NCBI RefSeq assembly: GCF_000340475.1
Contig: NZ_CM001792.1
Span: 2,856,921 to 2,920,920, forward strand
Length of the DNA stretch: 64,000 nt
Direction of reading: 5' to 3'
From: Oceanobacillus kimchii X50
GTDB taxonomy: Bacteria; Bacillota; Bacilli; Bacillales; Amphibacillaceae
Every line of letters starts with the position of its first letter. Positions within the stretch are counted from its first letter, which is position 1. Positions 7,880-23,395 of the stretch are shown in pieces. The notes under the pieces were generated by a model. The model saw nothing but the letters and a program-made list of their open reading frames with translations. It ran no database searches and was not told where the DNA came from. A program made the translations under genes and the position numbers.

Positions 7880-8224
7880 ATGAACAAAGTGGAAGCACTA
7901 AATAAGCAAATCTCTCAAATACAAGAAGAACAACTAGTCATTTCAAAATCGTTTACAGAAATTGACAATGAAGAAAATGAATTAGTAGAAATAATGAAAC
8001 GAAATAGGCGACTATTTGATCAGCTAAAATATTCATGGCACAAAGACAGAGAACTTAGTGAGACTTTTGATAATAACAAGAATGAACTCGATCACTATAC
8101 AAGCAAAATCTCAGAAATTATTTATCAAAAGCGAGTTGAATTATTAAAGAAGAAAAAAACTCTTCACTTGTCTGAAGAAGATTTAATGTATCAACGAAGG
8201 TTGCTTCACATGGAGGGTAAATAA
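7880..8224 (+). CDS. LXG-associated small helical protein (Lap2-like, DUF3958-type)
   Basis: A 114-residue, highly charged, mostly coiled-coil protein (LNKQISQIQEEQLVISKSF at the start, RRLLHMEG at the end), with no signal peptide. It occupies the position of the second partner protein (Lap2) in LXG operons; DUF3958 is the most likely family. I chose the ATG at 7880 (AAGG 9 nt upstream) over the TTG at 7871, which overlaps the previous stop. Its stop overlaps the start of the LXG effector as TAATG, so the two are translationally coupled. Confidence 0.7.
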   Translation: MNKVEALNKQISQIQEEQLVISKSFTEIDNEENELVEIMKRNRRLFDQLKYSWHKDRELSETFDNNKNELDHYTSKISEIIYQKRVELLKKKKTLHLSEEDLMYQRRLLHMEGK

Positions 8225-9765
8225 TGAGCCTTAGTATGTATCTAGGTGAAACAGATGATCAAAGGAATAGTATGAACGCAATATGTATTGAGATTATACA
8301 ATCGATGGAACAAACGAAGTCTTCAATATATTCATTTCATAAAGCTTTACTTTTACAGGGGATAACATATACCTCAGCAAAATCTTATCTCATTGATGTG
8401 TACCTCCCTCTAACTCAAGGTATCATCTACCTTTGTGAAGAGCTAATTCGTCAGAATGATAATTATCCAAGCGAATTTCGAGAGCAAGTAGCAACAACGG
8501 ATGTCATTGAACAAGAAGTAATAGAACAAATTCAAGAAATTGATAAAAGTATTGAAGCTTTGCGTGACGCAACAGTTGTACTACCATTTCAAAACATGAT
8601 GATTCAAATTTATATACGAATGAAACAAAAACTCCAAGAGAAACTAGAGAATCTTTATGCGTATAATTCGAGTTCCAGTAGTAACTTTGACACAGCAATA
8701 AGTCTTGCTAAAGCAGTGATGACTGGCCTTCAACAGGTTCAAGATGGGAATGGATTTAACAGCGATAATGGTACCTTTCAAACGAAAGGAATGGATTTAA
8801 GTTGGATTTCCACAATAGATGATATTCATTACACTAGAAAAGCAGAAGAGCACTACGCCGAGTACCTTCAACAATATCCAGAGGATAAAGATAAAGTAAT
8901 TGAAATTATTAAATATGAAGAAACTAATAATCAGTATGTTGATCAAACTAATGATTTTCTCTCTCCTCTTGAAGACAAAGATCAAATTGAAATTAAGTTT
9001 CTCATGTATACCTCTGAAGAACCTTATCGTACAATGTCTTTAAAGTATTTAGACGAAGTGACCATTGCCGATCCTGAGGCTGGTGGTGGGGCATTCTACC
9101 GATCTAGTGATAATAGCATCACAATGGGTAGCATGACAGAGGATCGTACCAATGCCAGAGGTGCATACTTTACTTTTTTTCATGAGCTAGGTCATGCTAT
9201 TGATTATAATCATGGAGTAGAGAATGGTATGGATGGGTTTTACTCGGATCATTACACATCAAATGGTAAGACATTAGCTAATCAAATGCACGGTGATGTA
9301 TCAAACAGAGTACAAAGCGAGATTAACCATAGACTTGATGATTCTAAATATGACCATCTATCTTCGACAGAAAAACAAGCTATAATAAATAATATTACAG
9401 AGGAATTCATTTATGAAGGTCCATCTAGTGTTTCATTAACAGCTGAAGAAGAAACGCTATATGGTGAAGTACAAACACAAATATCCCGTGAATTACAAGC
9501 AGATGAACATAATAACGCATCTGATGTTTATGGTGGTGTAACCGTGAATGAAATAGTTGGCAAATGGGGTCACCACGACAATTCCTATTGGATAGATGAG
9601 AATTCAGAAGAAAGAATCAATGAACCGAATAAAGAAGGGTTTGCAAGTTACTACGCAGCTTACATGCTTGAAGACTCTGAATTCAAAGATCAGCAGTTAA
9701 ATAGTGTTGGTGAATTCTTGCCAAATTCTAAAGAACATATGGATGAAATGCTTAATAACATGTAG
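8224..9765 (+). CDS. LXG polymorphic toxin with C-terminal zinc metallopeptidase module
   Basis: A 513-residue type VII effector. Residues 1 to about 190 form an LXG domain (MSLSMYLGET start, TYTSAKSYLIDVYLPLTQGI, CEELIRQNDNYPSEFR, then TDVIEQEVIEQIQEID). The C-terminal half holds HELGH at residues 320-324 in FFHELGHAIDYNHG, the HExxH zinc site of gluzincins. A candidate third ligand is Glu471 in NKEGFASYYAAYM, a layout like anthrax lethal factor (HEFGH ... EFFAEAF, family M34), but with a longer insertion between the two motifs. The effector would be exported by T7SS and cleave a target in or on a competitor. A lipoprotein gene, the likely immunity gene, follows 16 nt downstream. The LXG and HExxH calls are firm; the target and the M34 link are inference. 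Confidence 0.85.
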   Translation: MSLSMYLGETDDQRNSMNAICIEIIQSMEQTKSSIYSFHKALLLQGITYTSAKSYLIDVYLPLTQGIIYLCEELIRQNDNYPSEFREQVATTDVIEQEVIEQIQEIDKSIEALRDATVVLPFQNMMIQIYIRMKQKLQEKLENLYAYNSSSSSNFDTAISLAKAVMTGLQQVQDGNGFNSDNGTFQTKGMDLSWISTIDDIHYTRKAEEHYAEYLQQYPEDKDKVIEIIKYEETNNQYVDQTNDFLSPLEDKDQIEIKFLMYTSEEPYRTMSLKYLDEVTIADPEAGGGAFYRSSDNSITMGSMTEDRTNARGAYFTFFHELGHAIDYNHGVENGMDGFYSDHYTSNGKTLANQMHGDVSNRVQSEINHRLDDSKYDHLSSTEKQAIINNITEEFIYEGPSSVSLTAEEETLYGEVQTQISRELQADEHNNASDVYGGVTVNEIVGKWGHHDNSYWIDENSEERINEPNKEGFASYYAAYMLEDSEFKDQQLNSVGEFLPNSKEHMDEMLNNM

Positions 9766-9781
9766 TAAAAGGTGGGATCAC

Positions 9782-10402
9782 ATGTCCAAATCTATCAAAT
9801 ATCTACTACTAATCGTAGCCTCTTTTTTCTTAATAAGTTGTCAGCAGTCAGAAGGAACTAGCGGAAACGACAAAACTGATTCAGATACTACAAAAGAACA
9901 AAATAAAGTCGATGAGGGCGAGGATGATAACATGAGTGAAATAGATATCTATGACTTTAAAAACATTGAAAAAGCACCAAAAGCTGCTGAAAAACAACCT
10001 TTAGACAATGTAATCAAAATTTTCTTTGACGAAACAAGTATAGACGATCCTTATCAAGCAATAGCTATTGATATTAAAAATAATGAAATTTATAAAAATC
10101 CTATTATCAGTCGTAGAGGGTTACGTGCACAAGACGGTGTAATCGAAGTGAATAACACTGCTGAAGTTAACAACATATTAGAAAAACACAATGTACAAAA
10201 CTGGGAAGAAGATTATACATTTGAAGATGCTGAAACATATGAAGATGGTTACAGTTGGAGGCTATGGTTACAATATGAAGACGGAACCATTGAGAAACAT
10301 GGTGGAAAAGGTACAGACATAGTTAAACTTACTCCCGATAACTTTACCGCATTTGTAGATGAGCTTAGGGAATTTGAGAAACGAAAAATAGAGGGAAAAT
10401 AA
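9782..10402 (+). CDS. Lipoprotein, probable immunity protein of the LXG metallopeptidase
   Basis: A 206-residue lipoprotein: signal peptide LLLIVASFFLISC with lipobox, a charged low-complexity linker rich in D, E, K and T (to about residue 60), then a compact domain ending YSWRLWLQYEDGTIEKHGG. I chose ATG 9782, 8 nt after AAAGGTGGG. It directly follows the LXG effector, where immunity genes lie, and is closed by a terminator. A lipid-anchored immunity protein fits an effector that is neutralised outside the membrane, as known for the lipoprotein partners of the S. aureus T7SS lipase TslA. Sequence alone does not prove the role. Confidence 0.7.
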   Translation: MSKSIKYLLLIVASFFLISCQQSEGTSGNDKTDSDTTKEQNKVDEGEDDNMSEIDIYDFKNIEKAPKAAEKQPLDNVIKIFFDETSIDDPYQAIAIDIKNNEIYKNPIISRRGLRAQDGVIEVNNTAEVNNILEKHNVQNWEEDYTFEDAETYEDGYSWRLWLQYEDGTIEKHGGKGTDIVKLTPDNFTAFVDELREFEKRKIEGK

Positions 10403-10417
10403 TATAATAAAAATACG

Positions 10418-10453
10418 AAAGATTCTCCTATATGAGAGCTCGTTCGTATTTTT
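10418..10453. terminator. Bidirectional intrinsic terminator
   Basis: AAAATACGAA pairs with TTCGTATTTTT around a 13-nt loop. It closes both the LXG cassette and the converging symporter operon. Confidence 0.8.
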
Positions 10454-10469
10454 ATTTTGACTCCATCAT

Positions 10470-11990
10470 TTACAATACTTGCTGTTGCTCAATTTGTTTA
10501 ACTTTCCTATGACTGTTCATATGTTCTGCCCACAGACTTCCAGCAATCATAACTCCATAGCCAAGCATGGAACTATAAAGCAATGCGGTAAACACATGAT
10601 CTTGAATCCCAAAACCAGTAAGAGTCATAAAGCAGCTTGCACCTACGATTACGGAAGCTATGGCACCAACACGATTTGCTTTTTTCCAAAAATAACTTAG
10701 TGTTAGTGGGGCTACTACTCCACTAATGATCGCCGATGTCCCGAATTGTAGCAGTAATGATAGAGATTCTGGACGGTTGAATGACATATATAACGAAATT
10801 AGTCCGATAATAAATAATGCAATTCGAGCTACTCGGACTGCTTTCCGATCTATTTGCATTACAGATAGATTTTTATTCTTATAAAGAAAAGGAGCGATAA
10901 CTACTTTATAGATATCATTTCCGATACTTGCCGTCATACCAAGATACAAGCTATCTGTAGTCGATAGAATCGCCGAAACCATTCCCATTACAATCAATAC
11001 AATTAGAACCGTTGGGAAATACTCCAATACATATGCTGGGACTGCACTATCGGATGATGTTAATCCTGGTATCAGAACTCTTGCGGCTAAACCAGCGAAC
11101 ACAGAGAATGTAGATAAAAAAAACAGGGTTGCTCCCGCAGATAATGTAAATGTGCGAAGGTCTTCTTTCTTCCCTACAGATAATACTTTATTCATTAATT
11201 GTGGAAGAAGGACGAAACTAAGTAAAAACCATTGAATTGCCATAATGGCGAACCCACTATAAAATGGACTGTCTGCAGCTGTTGGAGCTGTTAAAGCAGG
11301 ATTAGCATTATTTAATTGTCCGGTTAAATTTCCTAAAGTTCCCCATCCTCCCCCGATTGTCCAAAAAAGAGAAAGAAATAAAAGCACGGAAATAACCGAC
11401 ATCACAATACCTTGAATTCCATCTGTAATTAGTTGTGCATATGCTCCACCCATACTAATATATAAAATCGTTAATGTAACTCCAAAAAAGATTCCCCAAT
11501 AATATGGTATTCCTATAATTGTTTCAAACATTGTTGCTAAACCTACGTTTTGGGCAACTATATAGTAGATGTTAAATAGAATTAATAACGCTACAATGAC
11601 TTGTAAAGCTTTACTATTATATCGATTACCTAGCCATTGGGGGAGCGTTAAACTACCTTCATTGTTTTGCCCCTGTTCCCAAAACTTTTTTGTTACAAGT
11701 AATAAGCCAATCCATGTGACTCCAAAACACCCTAAAGTATACCAAAGTACAGGTGTACCATACATATACGCCCATCCAGGCACACCAATAAATAAATTAG
11801 CGCTAGAATAGGTTGCACCAAAGCTAATTCCAATTAGCCATGGACTCACCTTACCTTTAGCAATGGAAAAACCCTTCATTGAACGACTATATTTAGCTCC
11901 TCGCTTACCAAACCAAACAATGAGCAAAAAGTAGCCAAAGAGACACGCTCCGATGATCCACGCAAGAGTCGTTTGATTATCAGTCAGCAT
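10470..11990 (-). CDS. Sodium:solute symporter (SSS family)
   Basis: A 506-residue inner-membrane symporter with about 13 helices. SSS hallmarks are the early FSIAKGKVSPWLIGISFGATYSSA-type region, IYISMGGAYAQLITDGIQ in the middle and MGMVSAILSTTDSLYLGMTA in the sodium-site helix. The substrate cannot be read from sequence. Context is informative: it is the last gene of a minus-strand operon headed by a SAM-I riboswitch, after an AhpD-like protein and a flavin monooxygenase, so uptake of an organosulfur or methionine-related compound is likely (inference). A 35-codon membrane peptide gene overlaps its start by 11 nt. GGAGGAGG lies just before its ATG, inside that small gene. Confidence 0.9.
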   Translation of the reverse strand: MLTDNQTTLAWIIGACLFGYFLLIVWFGKRGAKYSRSMKGFSIAKGKVSPWLIGISFGATYSSANLFIGVPGWAYMYGTPVLWYTLGCFGVTWIGLLLVTKKFWEQGQNNEGSLTLPQWLGNRYNSKALQVIVALLILFNIYYIVAQNVGLATMFETIIGIPYYWGIFFGVTLTILYISMGGAYAQLITDGIQGIVMSVISVLLFLSLFWTIGGGWGTLGNLTGQLNNANPALTAPTAADSPFYSGFAIMAIQWFLLSFVLLPQLMNKVLSVGKKEDLRTFTLSAGATLFFLSTFSVFAGLAARVLIPGLTSSDSAVPAYVLEYFPTVLIVLIVMGMVSAILSTTDSLYLGMTASIGNDIYKVVIAPFLYKNKNLSVMQIDRKAVRVARIALFIIGLISLYMSFNRPESLSLLLQFGTSAIISGVVAPLTLSYFWKKANRVGAIASVIVGASCFMTLTGFGIQDHVFTALLYSSMLGYGVMIAGSLWAEHMNSHRKVKQIEQQQVL

Positions 11991-12087
11991 TCGTGTCCTC
12001 CTCCATTCCTTTTGGGTAGAATTTATTCCAGATAATCAAACCAATTATCCAGAAGACGACAACTCCAATAAAATAATATGTGACCAT
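11980..12087 (-). CDS. 35-residue membrane peptide, probable small partner of the symporter
   Basis: A short gene reading MVTYYFIGVVVFWIIGLIIW, then a basic turn and an acidic tail (NKFYPKGMEEDTNAD). It has one membrane helix and an AAGGAG site 8-9 nt before the ATG. Its stop codon lies inside the symporter gene (11-nt overlap), implying translational coupling. Small single-helix subunits encoded just before a transporter are known for several symporters (for example MetS with the NSS transporter MetP), so a stability or assembly role is a reasonable inference. It is easily missed because of its length. Confidence 0.7.
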   Translation of the reverse strand: MVTYYFIGVVVFWIIGLIIWNKFYPKGMEEDTNAD

Positions 12088-12186
12088 CTGCTATTCACTC
12101 CTTTTCAAACGATTGTAAAATTATAGACCCATGTCAACGGAAGTGGCATGGTTTTAATTTACTAATCTAGTTCACACCTAAAAATA

Positions 12187-13557
12187 TTATGTATGAACCT
12201 TTCTTGGTTGCTTCGCTACATGATTTTCAGCCAATCGCTTTTTCCCTTTACCGAATATATTTTCACGTAATGTATTTCCTTCATACTCCGTACGATAGAT
12301 TCCACGATCTTGTAATATAGGTATTACATGATCTACAAAATCTCTAAATGTATCTGGAGAAGTTGCTAATGCAACATTAAAACCATCTATATCACCTTCA
12401 ACAGCCCACTTTTGTATTTGATCAGCGATCTGTTCTGGAGTACCTACAAACTTTGGACAACCATTTCCAAGTCCATGATTTTTTATTGCTTCACGTAATG
12501 TCCATTTACGATATGGGTCTTTCGTATACAGGTCTAGATTCCCTTGTACTGCTTCTGTTTCAATATCTTCAATATATTGATCTGGATTATACTCTGAAAA
12601 ATCAATTCCTGTATGTCCTGATAGTAAGGATGCCGTACCTTCATAGCTGATATGGTTTACGAAGTCCTCATACTTCGCAATCGCTTCTGCTTCTGTTGAG
12701 CCAACAATTGGTAACATCAATGGGAATATTTTAACGTCATCTGGATTTCTTCCTTTTTCTTGAGCACGTTTCTTAATATCGGAAGAATAATTTTTCAACG
12801 ATTCAATAGATGTTTGCTTTGTAAAAACTGCCTCTGCATGTTTTGCCGCAAAATCTCTTCCCTTTGGTGATGCTCCCGCTTGGAATAATACTGGCGTTCG
12901 TTGCGGCGAGGGTTCAACTAAGTGCGGTCCTGGCACATTAAAAAACTCCCCACTATGATTAATTAAGCGAACTTTCTCTGGGTTAGCAAAAGTATCATTG
13001 GCACGGTCATAAATCACCGCATCCTCATCCCAACTACGCTCCCAAAGTTTGTATACCACATCTAAAAATTCATCCGCTCGATTATAACGCAATTCTTTCG
13101 GTAACCTTTCTGTTAACCCCATATTGACTGCTTCACTTTCCAAATAGGAAGTAACGACATTCCATCCAACTCTTCCTCCTGTTAAATGGTCCAATGTGGA
13201 TAACTGACGTGCTAGTACATAGGGTTGTGCATAGGTAGTAGAAATTGTTGGCGCAAAACCAAGATGCTCGGTAACTGCGGCCATTGCTGTAATAGGAAGT
13301 AAAGGATCATGTGCAGGAAGTTGAACTGCGCCTCTCGTCGCTGCGTCATGGCTTTTCCCATAAACACTGTACGTCCCTAATACATCAGCAATAAATAACG
13401 AGTCAAATTTGCCGCGTTCTAGAATTTGCGCAATTTCCGTCCAGTAACCTAAACGATTATGATTTATTCCATAATCTTTCTCATGTTTCCAAAGCCCCGT
13501 TGAATGAGGGGAAGGTGAATTTTGCACGAATCCATTAAAATGAATTTGTTTTGCCAT
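12187..13557 (-). CDS. FMN-dependent monooxygenase of the NtaA/SnaA/DszA family
   Basis: A 456-residue bacterial-luciferase-like (LLM class) flavin monooxygenase. Family features include the start MAKQIHFNGFVQNSPSPHS, GRVGWNVVTSYLESEAVNMG, the RYNRADEFLDVVYKLWE segment and PVLFQAGASPKGRDFAAKHA. Members use reduced FMN from a separate reductase and O2 to oxidise nitrilotriacetate, EDTA, dibenzothiophene sulfone, alkyl sulfides or N-acetylcysteine-type compounds. It follows the tandem AhpD-like gene by 66 nt, downstream of a SAM-I riboswitch, so a sulfur-scavenging reaction is the best inference. No flavin reductase gene is in the operon. About 100 nt separate it from the symporter pair. Confidence 0.9.
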   Translation of the reverse strand: MAKQIHFNGFVQNSPSPHSTGLWKHEKDYGINHNRLGYWTEIAQILERGKFDSLFIADVLGTYSVYGKSHDAATRGAVQLPAHDPLLPITAMAAVTEHLGFAPTISTTYAQPYVLARQLSTLDHLTGGRVGWNVVTSYLESEAVNMGLTERLPKELRYNRADEFLDVVYKLWERSWDEDAVIYDRANDTFANPEKVRLINHSGEFFNVPGPHLVEPSPQRTPVLFQAGASPKGRDFAAKHAEAVFTKQTSIESLKNYSSDIKKRAQEKGRNPDDVKIFPLMLPIVGSTEAEAIAKYEDFVNHISYEGTASLLSGHTGIDFSEYNPDQYIEDIETEAVQGNLDLYTKDPYRKWTLREAIKNHGLGNGCPKFVGTPEQIADQIQKWAVEGDIDGFNVALATSPDTFRDFVDHVIPILQDRGIYRTEYEGNTLRENIFGKGKKRLAENHVAKQPRKVHT

Positions 13558-13623
13558 ATGCTCAGCTCCTTTTTAGTATCTGAATAAGATAATTACATTA
13601 ATTAACATTGGGAATCTATTAAA

Positions 13624-14292
13624 CTACTCTTCATCGTAAGCATTTAATGCATTGACACTGTGCGCTAATGCAGAACCTGCTTTAAGAGCAACAGCTACAA
13701 AAATAGCTTCTGATAACTCTTCTTTACTGGCTCCAGCTTCCTTTGCATTTTTCGTATGCAAGTCAATACAATAAGCACATCCTGTTGTATGCGCAGAGGC
13801 TACTGCAATCAACTCTTTTTCCTTCAATGTAAGTTTACCTTCTTTTAAAACCGCTCCATCAAATTTCAAGAAAGCTTTGAAAGCATCATCACTTATCTCA
13901 CCAAGTTCTTGTAGTCGTTTAAAGTAGGAAGCTTTATATAACTCATCATCATCATTTCCGTCATATGCATTCAATCCATTTACTGCGTGCGCTAATGAAG
14001 AGCCTGCTTTTAATGTTGTTGCAACAAATATTGCCTCAGTTACTTCTTCTTTATCAGCACCTTGGTTTTTTACGTTTCCTACATGGAGTTCAATACAGTA
14101 TGGACAACCTGTAATGTGAGCAACTGCCACTGCAATTAATTCTTTTTGTTTCACGGAAAGCTTCCCTTCTTCAAGCGCTTTGTTGTTGAAGGCAAAGAAC
14201 GAATTAAATACGCCTGGTGCAAATTCCTTTAATTCTTGGATACGACTGAAATACGATTTTTTATAAAGACTCCCTGTTTTTGTAGTTGGCAT
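13624..14292 (-). CDS. Tandem AhpD-like (carboxymuconolactone decarboxylase family) protein
   Basis: A 222-residue soluble protein made of two near-identical AhpD/CMD domains with a period of 109 residues. Each half has the redox motif: C63-P-Y-C66 with H70, and C172-A-Y-C175 with H179, inside a KELIAVA.AH.TGC.YCI.LH pattern. Single-domain AhpD proteins are disulfide reductases that act as trimers of tandem or single helical repeats. The closeness of the halves suggests a fairly recent internal duplication. It is the first gene after the SAM-I riboswitch and the partner of the flavin monooxygenase; such pairs are common in sulfur-starvation loci, where AhpD may protect from peroxide or reduce sulfur intermediates (inference). 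Confidence 0.9.
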   Translation of the reverse strand: MPTTKTGSLYKKSYFSRIQELKEFAPGVFNSFFAFNNKALEEGKLSVKQKELIAVAVAHITGCPYCIELHVGNVKNQGADKEEVTEAIFVATTLKAGSSLAHAVNGLNAYDGNDDDELYKASYFKRLQELGEISDDAFKAFLKFDGAVLKEGKLTLKEKELIAVASAHTTGCAYCIDLHTKNAKEAGASKEELSEAIFVAVALKAGSALAHSVNALNAYDEE

Positions 14293-14440
14293 AATACACT
14301 CTCTCCTTTTCGTTTTAATAAAAATTTCGATTGCTTGGCTTGTGTAACTATTGCCTCCTAAATAAAGTTAACTTATTGGTTTAGTCATATTTAAAGTCAC
14401 ATTGTTCCAGTTTTTCTTTACACTCCCCTTTTGAAAAAAG

Positions 14441-14469
14441 AAAAAACCCTTCCGATGAGGAAGAGTTTC
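14441..14469 (-). terminator. Attenuator terminator of the SAM-I riboswitch
   Basis: On the minus strand AAACTCTTCC, loop TCATC and GGAAGGGTTT form a 10-bp stem with one G-U pair, followed by a U-run. It lies between the SAM-I aptamer and the first gene, so it is the expression platform that ends transcription when SAM is bound. Confidence 0.85.
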
Positions 14470-14492
14470 ATTTAGTGGGCATAAACACTTTT

Positions 14493-14597
14493 CTCATCTA
14501 TCAAGCATAAGCTTGCTGGAATGAGCACCATGTTACTTAACTGTAACTGGTTGCTGCGGGATCAACGGACCAGGTTCCTCCCCCGACTCTTGATAAG
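14493..14597 (-). ncRNA. SAM-I (S-box) riboswitch aptamer
   Basis: Read on the minus strand it shows the S-box core in order: CTTATCAAGAG, then GGAGGAACCTGG, CCCGCAGCAACC, GGTGCTCATTCCAGCAAGC, and a closing GATGAG that pairs with CTTATC as P1. These are the conserved SAM-I elements. SAM binding would favour the downstream terminator and switch the operon off, so AhpD, the flavin monooxygenase and the symporter should be expressed when SAM or methionine is scarce. Confidence 0.95.
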
Positions 14598-14632
14598 GAA
14601 AATATTATATAGTTGTGTAAGATTTGTATATT

Positions 14633-14661
14633 AGCATAACGAACCAGCAAATAACTGTCAA
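14633..14661 (-). promoter_or_regulatory. Promoter of the SAM riboswitch operon
   Basis: On the minus strand a consensus TTGACA (14656-14661), 17 nt and TATGCT (14633-14638) lie just upstream of the aptamer. Confidence 0.6.
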
Positions 14662-23209: not shown

Positions 23210-23228
23210 AATAGCGAAATTAAATATT

Positions 23229-23300
23229 GTACTCGTATATGTTCAGTAATATGGTCTGAACGTCTCTACCAAGTTCCCAAAAAGAACCGGACTACGAGTT
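23229..23300 (+). ncRNA. Purine (guanine/hypoxanthine class) riboswitch aptamer
   Basis: P1 is formed by ACTCGTA and TACGAGT. Between them are TAATATGGTCTGAACG, the core TCTCTACC and the closing GGACTACGAG. In the core GACTA the key base is C (position 74 in the xpt numbering), which selects guanine or hypoxanthine; adenine switches have U there. Confidence 0.92.
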
Positions 23301-23395
23301 GAAGTTATATGTATGGACAAATGAGTTAATTGCTCTCTTGTCTATCATGTTTTGGTGTGGTATTTCACATTGTAAACAAACTTTGACTCTAATAG

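Follow-up and report, generated by a model that had tools for sequence, protein, structure and literature searches.

A SAM-I riboswitch-led row of AhpD2, monooxygenase, micropeptide and symporter genes in Oceanobacillus kimchii as a likely organosulfur-scavenging operon

Gene row and riboswitch leader

We analyzed a row of four minus-strand genes of Oceanobacillus kimchii X50 that lies behind a SAM-I riboswitch (S-box; SAM, S-adenosylmethionine) and is probably switched off by this SAM-sensing RNA. The row is located in a stretch of 64,000 nucleotides (nt; positions 2,856,921 to 2,920,920 of contig NZ_CM001792.1, in the following called the window) of a 3.83 Mb genome that consists of a single contig, and the same locus is also present on a contig of O. 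profundus DSM 18246. According to the list of open reading frames (ORFs) and to family scans, the row encodes AhpD2 (13624-14292), a protein with two CMD/AhpD domains and a TIGR04169 match, a luciferase-like monooxygenase (LLM; 12187-13557) of the NtaA/DmoA family dependent on flavin mononucleotide (FMN), a micropeptide of 35 amino acids (aa) with a single transmembrane-like stretch (11980-12087) and an SSS-family sodium:solute symporter (10470-11990; PF00474), with the micropeptide and symporter ORFs overlapping by 11 nt. A preliminary description of this DNA had read the locus as an S-box with attenuator followed by four same-strand genes ending at one terminator, a layout that the RF00162 score, the ORFs and the folding of the hairpins confirmed.

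Using cmscan, the S-box aptamer was found at 14599-14491 on the minus strand with 78.8 bits (E 7.3e-17), the gathering score of RF00162 being 44.4. It is followed by an attenuator hairpin with a U-tract (14469-14443, minus strand; terminator scan and folding), which has a folding energy of -13.3 kcal/mol (z -3.45) that none of 200 shuffled sequences equalled, and CTCATC in the loop region of this hairpin is complementary to GATGAG, the 3' strand of P1. About 33 nt upstream of the aptamer a promoter-like TTGACA-17-TATGCT (14633-14661, minus strand) agrees with the consensus at 10 of 12 positions, with the number of such matches not being above chance (17 found versus 21.8 in shuffles). The row ends at a long A/U-rich hairpin with a U-rich tail (10456-10406, minus strand; -19.5 kcal/mol, z -4.25, no equally stable fold among 200 shuffles), which was detected by folding, is missing from the list of the consensus terminator scan and, given its symmetry, may also serve the convergent plus-strand gene.

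In order to compare the leader with its relatives we surveyed 51 S-boxes of related rows including that of the window, two matches beside other genes being excluded. The core motifs AGAG, GCAACC/A and GGTGC/TGTGC, which we take to hold the SAM contacts, are present in the window and by pattern in 50 of the 51, and the letters of the pseudoknot between P2 loop and J3-4 (CTGG with CCAG) are likewise present in the window and in 46. A script detected a terminator in 41 S-boxes and, in 31, a stretch complementary to the P1 3' strand over at least 6 nt; the window has both. An alignment of 18 S-boxes revealed a variant P2 (GGAGGAA...TGGTCC...GATCC) common to the window and five of six S-boxes of related operons; it is lacking in the 11 other S-boxes of the O. 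kimchii genome and in the related locus L016 (L numbers denote loci and G numbers genomes). This shared variant fits a riboswitch and an operon that mostly descended together.

An LXG-domain protein (8224-9765, plus strand; PF04740, 30.8 bits), whose C-terminal part shows a weak, below-threshold metallopeptidase-like match, is followed by a lipoprotein-like ORF (9704-10402), and the pair looks like a polymorphic secreted effector with its partner. The window also contains a purine riboswitch aptamer (23213-23314, plus strand; RF00167, 80.4 bits) and a PreQ1 riboswitch aptamer (60101-60054, minus strand; RF00522, 48.2 bits).

Recurrence of the S-box linkage in related genomes

The symporter exceeds the gathering threshold of PF00474 (167.1 versus 22.8 bits) and stays below the cut-off for a PanF equivalog (164.5 versus 328.05 bits). 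Symporters of this type were found in 22 of 100 family genomes (E <= 1e-120), and all 22 have an upstream same-strand S-box that exceeds the Rfam threshold, 59 to 5083 nt from the symporter in the 19 genomes in which the distance was measured; in these 19 no free opposite-strand ORF of at least 150 aa intervenes. As a control by position, only one of 11 SSS genes in the O. kimchii genome has an upstream same-strand S-box within 6 kb, and a mere background of symporter genes was therefore rejected as explanation of the linkage. Among the LLM-superfamily genes of the same genome the corresponding number is two of six. The first gene behind the S-box is that of the symporter in five of the 22 genomes, one of which (G063) has no separate listed micropeptide ORF, so the link to the riboswitch is independent of read-through from the LLM gene. 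An adjacent LLM gene is present in 11 of the 22, five of them showing the order S-box, symporter, LLM with LLMs of a more distant group.

The micropeptide directly precedes the symporter in 21 of the 22 genomes, ending between 22 nt before and 11 nt inside the symporter ORF. Its length is 26-38 aa if inner starts are taken into account, it has one transmembrane-like stretch, and M1, Y5, G16 and Y24 are invariant among the 21 aligned sequences. No credible NCBIfam match to the 21 micropeptides appeared at E up to 10 and no Pfam match to that of the window at E up to 0.01. By eye, no such micropeptide was seen before the ten other SSS genes of the own genome, three of which are preceded by longer ORFs (60-75 aa), or before six symporters of a second type. 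Micropeptide and symporter, which the preliminary description had proposed as the uptake part, stay together also in rows without an LLM. Three independent recruitments of symporters were considered and rejected, as the symporters of the O. profundus type share 73% identity with those of the V. salexigens type, which leaves only two types, about 30% identical to each other.

The 11 symporter rows without adjacent LLM have other neighbours. In L253-L258 and L263-L265 S-box rows carry genes for a thiolase, a CoA ligase, a second thiolase-like protein and a ChsH2-like OB/zinc protein together with the micropeptide-symporter pair, and five thiolase/CoA-ligase rows have tandem S-boxes. Families were scanned for L251-L253, the genes of the other LLM-less rows being recognised by eye; the ligase of L253 meets the cut-off for acetoacetate-CoA ligase and that of L251 lies below the cut-off for acetate-CoA ligase. 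Proteins with a molybdopterin oxidoreductase domain (PF00174) are encoded directly behind S-boxes beside the symporter row in L251 (10081-10746) and L252 (5927-6595).

The LLM matches TIGR03860, the NtaA/DmoA family, over its full length (572.1 versus a cut-off of 279.7 bits), and its nearest solved chains are LadA (461.7 bits, 48% identity) and DmoA (450.7 bits, 45% identity). The preliminary description had called it an NtaA-type monooxygenase, but by score the protein is closest to LadA and DmoA and not to DszA or NtaA. A YtnJ-type enzyme was rejected as closest relative because of its far lower score (275.4 bits). LLMs of this kind gave 66 matches in 38 of the 100 family genomes (E <= 1e-130). 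We examined 30 of these loci and found an S-box within 1.5 kb in 25; in three more (G015, G056, G078) an S-box lies further upstream in a row with SsuE, while G088 and G096 were inspected within 1.5 kb only. In a phylogenetic tree of 56 LLMs all 18 rows of the clade of the window LLM are S-box-linked, 12 of them having a symporter in the same row. DmoA does not group with this separate, starred clade and sits on a long branch at an unresolved fork with other LLMs. The group of LadA (98/99) comprises six rows; three are S-box-linked, and the other three have no S-box within 1.5 kb. Among the linked LLM genes, one located on a plasmid of Paenisporosarcina has MetQ as the next gene.

Different gene orders occur behind these S-boxes, namely AhpD2-LLM-SSS, LLM-SSS with a second S-box on AhpD2, SSS-LLM and SsuE-LLM. 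SsuE-type FMN reductases are present in many S-box LLM rows, and others contain acyl-CoA-dehydrogenase-fold proteins (that of L051 with a weak, below-cut-off similarity to SfnB), transporters looking by eye like MetQ/MetN, or an SfnG-like fragment. In L262 (7795-9167) of the relative G029 the LLM of the clade is split into two ORFs by a frameshift, with S-box, micropeptide and symporter intact.

AhpD2 contains two CMD domains that both carry the conserved motif HxTGCxYC, and it exceeds the cut-off of TIGR04169 (arsenosugar-associated peroxidase-like; 171.4 versus 120 bits); its neighbours in the window row are LLM and SSS genes, no search for neighbours of arsenosugar biosynthesis having been made. 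Relatives occur in 28 of the 100 family genomes (E <= 1e-20). From a search of genome contigs the best 80 of 172 relatives were used, with Oceanobacillus, Bhargavaea, Salinibacillus, Virgibacillus, Alteribacillus, Bacillus, Fredinandcohnia and Lederbergia among the named genera. Using a covariance model built from 18 S-boxes we searched these 80 loci and found an S-box directly upstream of AhpD2 in 29, all within the 30 loci of highest identity (70-79%); in the 30th (L081) the S-box heads an LLM-SSS-AhpD2 row, and in the 50 loci of lower identity no S-box lies directly upstream of AhpD2. Among the top 30, the LLM is in the same row in 19 and the symporter too in 17 of these 19. In the other 11 the S-box-AhpD2 unit stands without LLM, once beside a 54-aa symporter remnant (L078); each of these 11 genomes carries an S-box-linked LLM at another place, with 16 of their 23 LLM matches having an S-box within 1.5 kb. 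Five Bhargavaea loci show one S-box leading LLM-SSS and a second leading AhpD2. AhpD2 is an optional member of the operon. Directly upstream of the S-box-AhpD2-SsuE-LLM row in L051 (8784-11972) we observed genes for a methyltransferase/LuxS-like fusion, a cysteine-synthase-like protein and a cystathionine-gamma-lyase.

The preliminary description had also considered a split of the symporter from the riboswitch by a promoter and a terminator. The gap between LLM and micropeptide genes, 99 nt long, folds no better than shuffles (z +1.25), the scan listed no minus-strand terminator in it, and an inverted repeat (12129-12151) resembles a terminator only when read on the plus strand. A promoter-like ATGCCA-18-TATAAT with 10 of 12 matches is present in the gap (12149-12120), and an additional internal promoter at this site could drive micropeptide and symporter separately and place the symporter of the window outside riboswitch control. 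We regard this as very unlikely, given that promoter-like matches are no more frequent than expected by chance, that the equivalent gaps in L043 and L215, which have the same micropeptide and symporter, are short (38 and 32 nt, or 50 and 44 nt counted from an inner ATG), that no minus-strand terminator is listed and that this type of symporter has an S-box upstream in every genome in which it was found.

The O. kimchii genome contains 12 S-boxes. Divergent S-boxes at L272 (C1:3264345-3264686) lie on genes for an SsuE FMN reductase (226.4 bits versus a cut-off of 164.05) and an SfnG-like LLM, the latter below the equivalog cut-off for SfnG dimethylsulfone monooxygenase (265.6 versus 382.95 bits). 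Another S-box (L008, C1:3572631-3572750) precedes a GldA/YbdH-like dehydrogenase with 295.7 bits to PRK10586, below the cut-off of 429. The remaining targets are by eye MetN (two), MetK, a MetE-type protein, O-acetylhomoserine-sulfhydrylase-type proteins (two) and a homocysteine-methyltransferase-like protein, and one S-box (L005) lies before a gene of unclear kind. Riboswitch, LLM and symporter thus appear, with good support from these comparisons, to form one unit amid organosulfur genes. The regulatory part of the earlier proposal, a SAM-repressed sulfur operon, was strengthened by the profiling of S-boxes, with the LLM clade, the window-type symporters and the SSS control all pointing in the same direction.

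Proposed function and candidate substrates

We consider it likely that the operon is one arm of a regulon that is repressed by SAM and scavenges organosulfur compounds, and that this arm serves import and C-S cleavage. At high SAM the S-box would keep its P1 helix, the attenuator would form and transcription would stop, whereas at low SAM the P1 3' strand would pair with the loop region of the terminator and the operon would be transcribed; we infer this switching because of the known S-box logic and the GATGAG/CTCATC complementarity. With the micropeptide as its helper or stabiliser, the symporter would then import a small organosulfur acid together with Na+, and SsuE, S-box-linked and encoded elsewhere in the genome, would supply the LLM with reduced FMN (FMNH2). 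The LLM is predicted to oxidise the imported compound next to the sulfur and thereby to cleave the C-S bond, so that the freed thiol or sulfite could be used to make methionine and cysteine. AhpD2, which is an AhpD-type protein with CxxC, would probably remove peroxide arising from uncoupled flavin chemistry or reduce an oxidised sulfur intermediate, although this role is a guess. Various genes under SAM riboswitches in Bacillales and other bacteria have been assigned before to probable cysteine or methionine metabolism or transport (Sun 2013, PMC3766115).

Several points weigh against this reading. When the whole leader was folded by energy, a mixed structure lacking P1 resulted, which an added constraint did not change; the P1-on state did not appear, and the argument for a switch rests on the complementarity. 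The family genomes share descent, so our counts are not independent events. Half of the symporter loci (11 of 22) have no adjacent LLM and mostly show a thiolase/CoA-ligase row instead, meaning that the substrate of the symporter need not equal that of the LLM. The LLMs beside the symporter in G023, G063, G082, G091 and G099 belong to a more distant group, with profile scores of 498-502 bits versus more than 860 for the window clade, and AhpD2 is not in the row in eight of the 15 highest-scoring family LLM rows. Near LadA itself no S-box was found in the 7.4 kb examined. LadA is reported to be inactive on dibenzothiophene sulfone (PMC12449030), and for the group C enzymes of Acinetobacter detectable oxidation of dimethyl sulfide (DMS) is reported in none (PMC13352529).

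The LLM might alternatively be a DmoA-like monooxygenase for DMS or another volatile methyl thioether, with the symporter importing other SAM-regulated cargo such as a methionine precursor. This would agree with the closeness of the LLM to DmoA and with the 11 symporter genomes without neighbouring LLM, and DMS should need no symporter. A gene named dmoA has also been listed under a SAM riboswitch (PMC4342826). However, 12 of the 18 LLM-clade rows include a symporter, as do 17 of the 19 loci with AhpD2 and LLM, two types of symporter are involved, and DmoA falls outside the window clade, which makes this explanation possible but rather unlikely.

As LadA is the top-scoring solved chain, the LLM could also be an oxygenase that, like LadA, would act on alkanes or on other compounds without sulfur, in which case the row would serve the use of a carbon source and the S-box would merely tie it to methyl or sulfur status. 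We find this hardly plausible, as three of the six rows grouping with LadA are S-box-linked, one with MetQ as the next gene, as SsuE reductases occur in related S-box rows, and as the alkane activity of LadA was reported in 2025 not to be reproducible (PMC12449030).

Returning to the scavenging of an organosulfur acid, a clue to the substrate comes from an MmsA-type (methyl)malonate-semialdehyde dehydrogenase, encoded beside seven of 23 listed rows with the second type of symporter. It is the next gene in L063, L070, L213, L214 and L216 and adjoins the row with its own S-box in L218 and L219, and the two proteins scanned (L213 and L218) exceed the cut-off of TIGR01722. At the 22 window-type loci no MmsA gene was detected within the sequence fetched (4.4 kb each for G091 and G099), and the copy of O. 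kimchii lies about 50 kb from the operon without an S-box, so this clue bears only indirectly on the substrate in the window. With this knowledge we tentatively propose, as a speculative and on the whole unlikely extension, that micropeptide and symporter form a SAM-riboswitch-controlled importer of short S-substituted carboxylates, which the LLM would cleave at the C-S bond to a semialdehyde and methanethiol or sulfite, LadA then being part of the same organosulfur group. A propionate (3-methylthiopropionate from dimethylsulfoniopropionate, or 3-sulfopropionate) would yield malonate semialdehyde, which the MmsA-type dehydrogenase of some relatives could turn into acetyl-CoA, and methanethiol could pass straight to methionine. 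If true, LadA, long named an alkane hydroxylase, would belong to the organosulfur enzymes.

The riboswitch ties part of the LadA/DmoA subgroup of flavin monooxygenases, of uncertain substrate, to sulfur status, and for enzymes whose alkane activity was not reproduced this link yields a short, testable list of substrates. It also suggests how salt-loving soil and marine Bacillaceae may obtain sulfur from organic compounds.

Comparison with known systems

Our searches of the open-access literature brought up neither the S-box-AhpD2-LLM-symporter operon nor the micropeptide, an earlier mention in a subscription paper being possible; terms for small subunits were absent from a review of the SSS family, and the terms riboswitch and monooxygenase from a review of methionine salvage. 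The system had been called undescribed in the preliminary description, which agrees with this search for the full operon but not for the link of riboswitch and monooxygenase, as an RNA-seq table of Bacillus methanolicus already contains '(SAM)-dmoA, DMS degradation' beside a (SAM)-ssu uptake unit (PMC4342826). In strain MGA3 a SAM riboswitch likewise stands before a gene named dmoA; this entry consists of one gene, names no AhpD2, micropeptide or symporter, and was compared by its table entry (PMC4342826). The conserved operon appears to be new, as do the micropeptide-symporter pair with its link to a riboswitch, an occasional semialdehyde-dehydrogenase partner and the grouping of LadA with riboswitch-linked enzymes.

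Small partner subunits are known for SSS symporters of the PanF-YhdT, ActP-YjcH and DUF4212 type, in which the gene of a small membrane protein likewise lies directly before the SSS gene. Unlike these, the window-type partner has only 26-38 aa with one transmembrane-like stretch and is without a credible match to a curated family.

The organosulfur pathway of Pseudomonas and Acinetobacter is under the control of protein regulators. In this pathway (SfnG, SsuE/MsuE, group C and D monooxygenases) FMNH2-dependent oxygenases share a flavin reductase for sulfur nutrition (PMC13352529), and the O. kimchii genome parallels it with its S-box-linked SsuE and SfnG-like LLM. The window operon differs by having a SAM riboswitch and an SSS symporter, the word riboswitch being absent from the main text on that pathway (PMC13352529).

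With the SAM-I regulon of Bacillales (RF00162) the operon has the aptamer, the transcription attenuator and the sulfur/methionine theme in common, and we know of no LLM monooxygenase, AhpD2 or micropeptide-symporter pair among the classical S-box genes. To the LadA/DmoA subgroup of TIGR03860 the window LLM shows a full-length match, and it differs from this subgroup by its separate clade, which is S-box-linked in all 18 of its tree rows.

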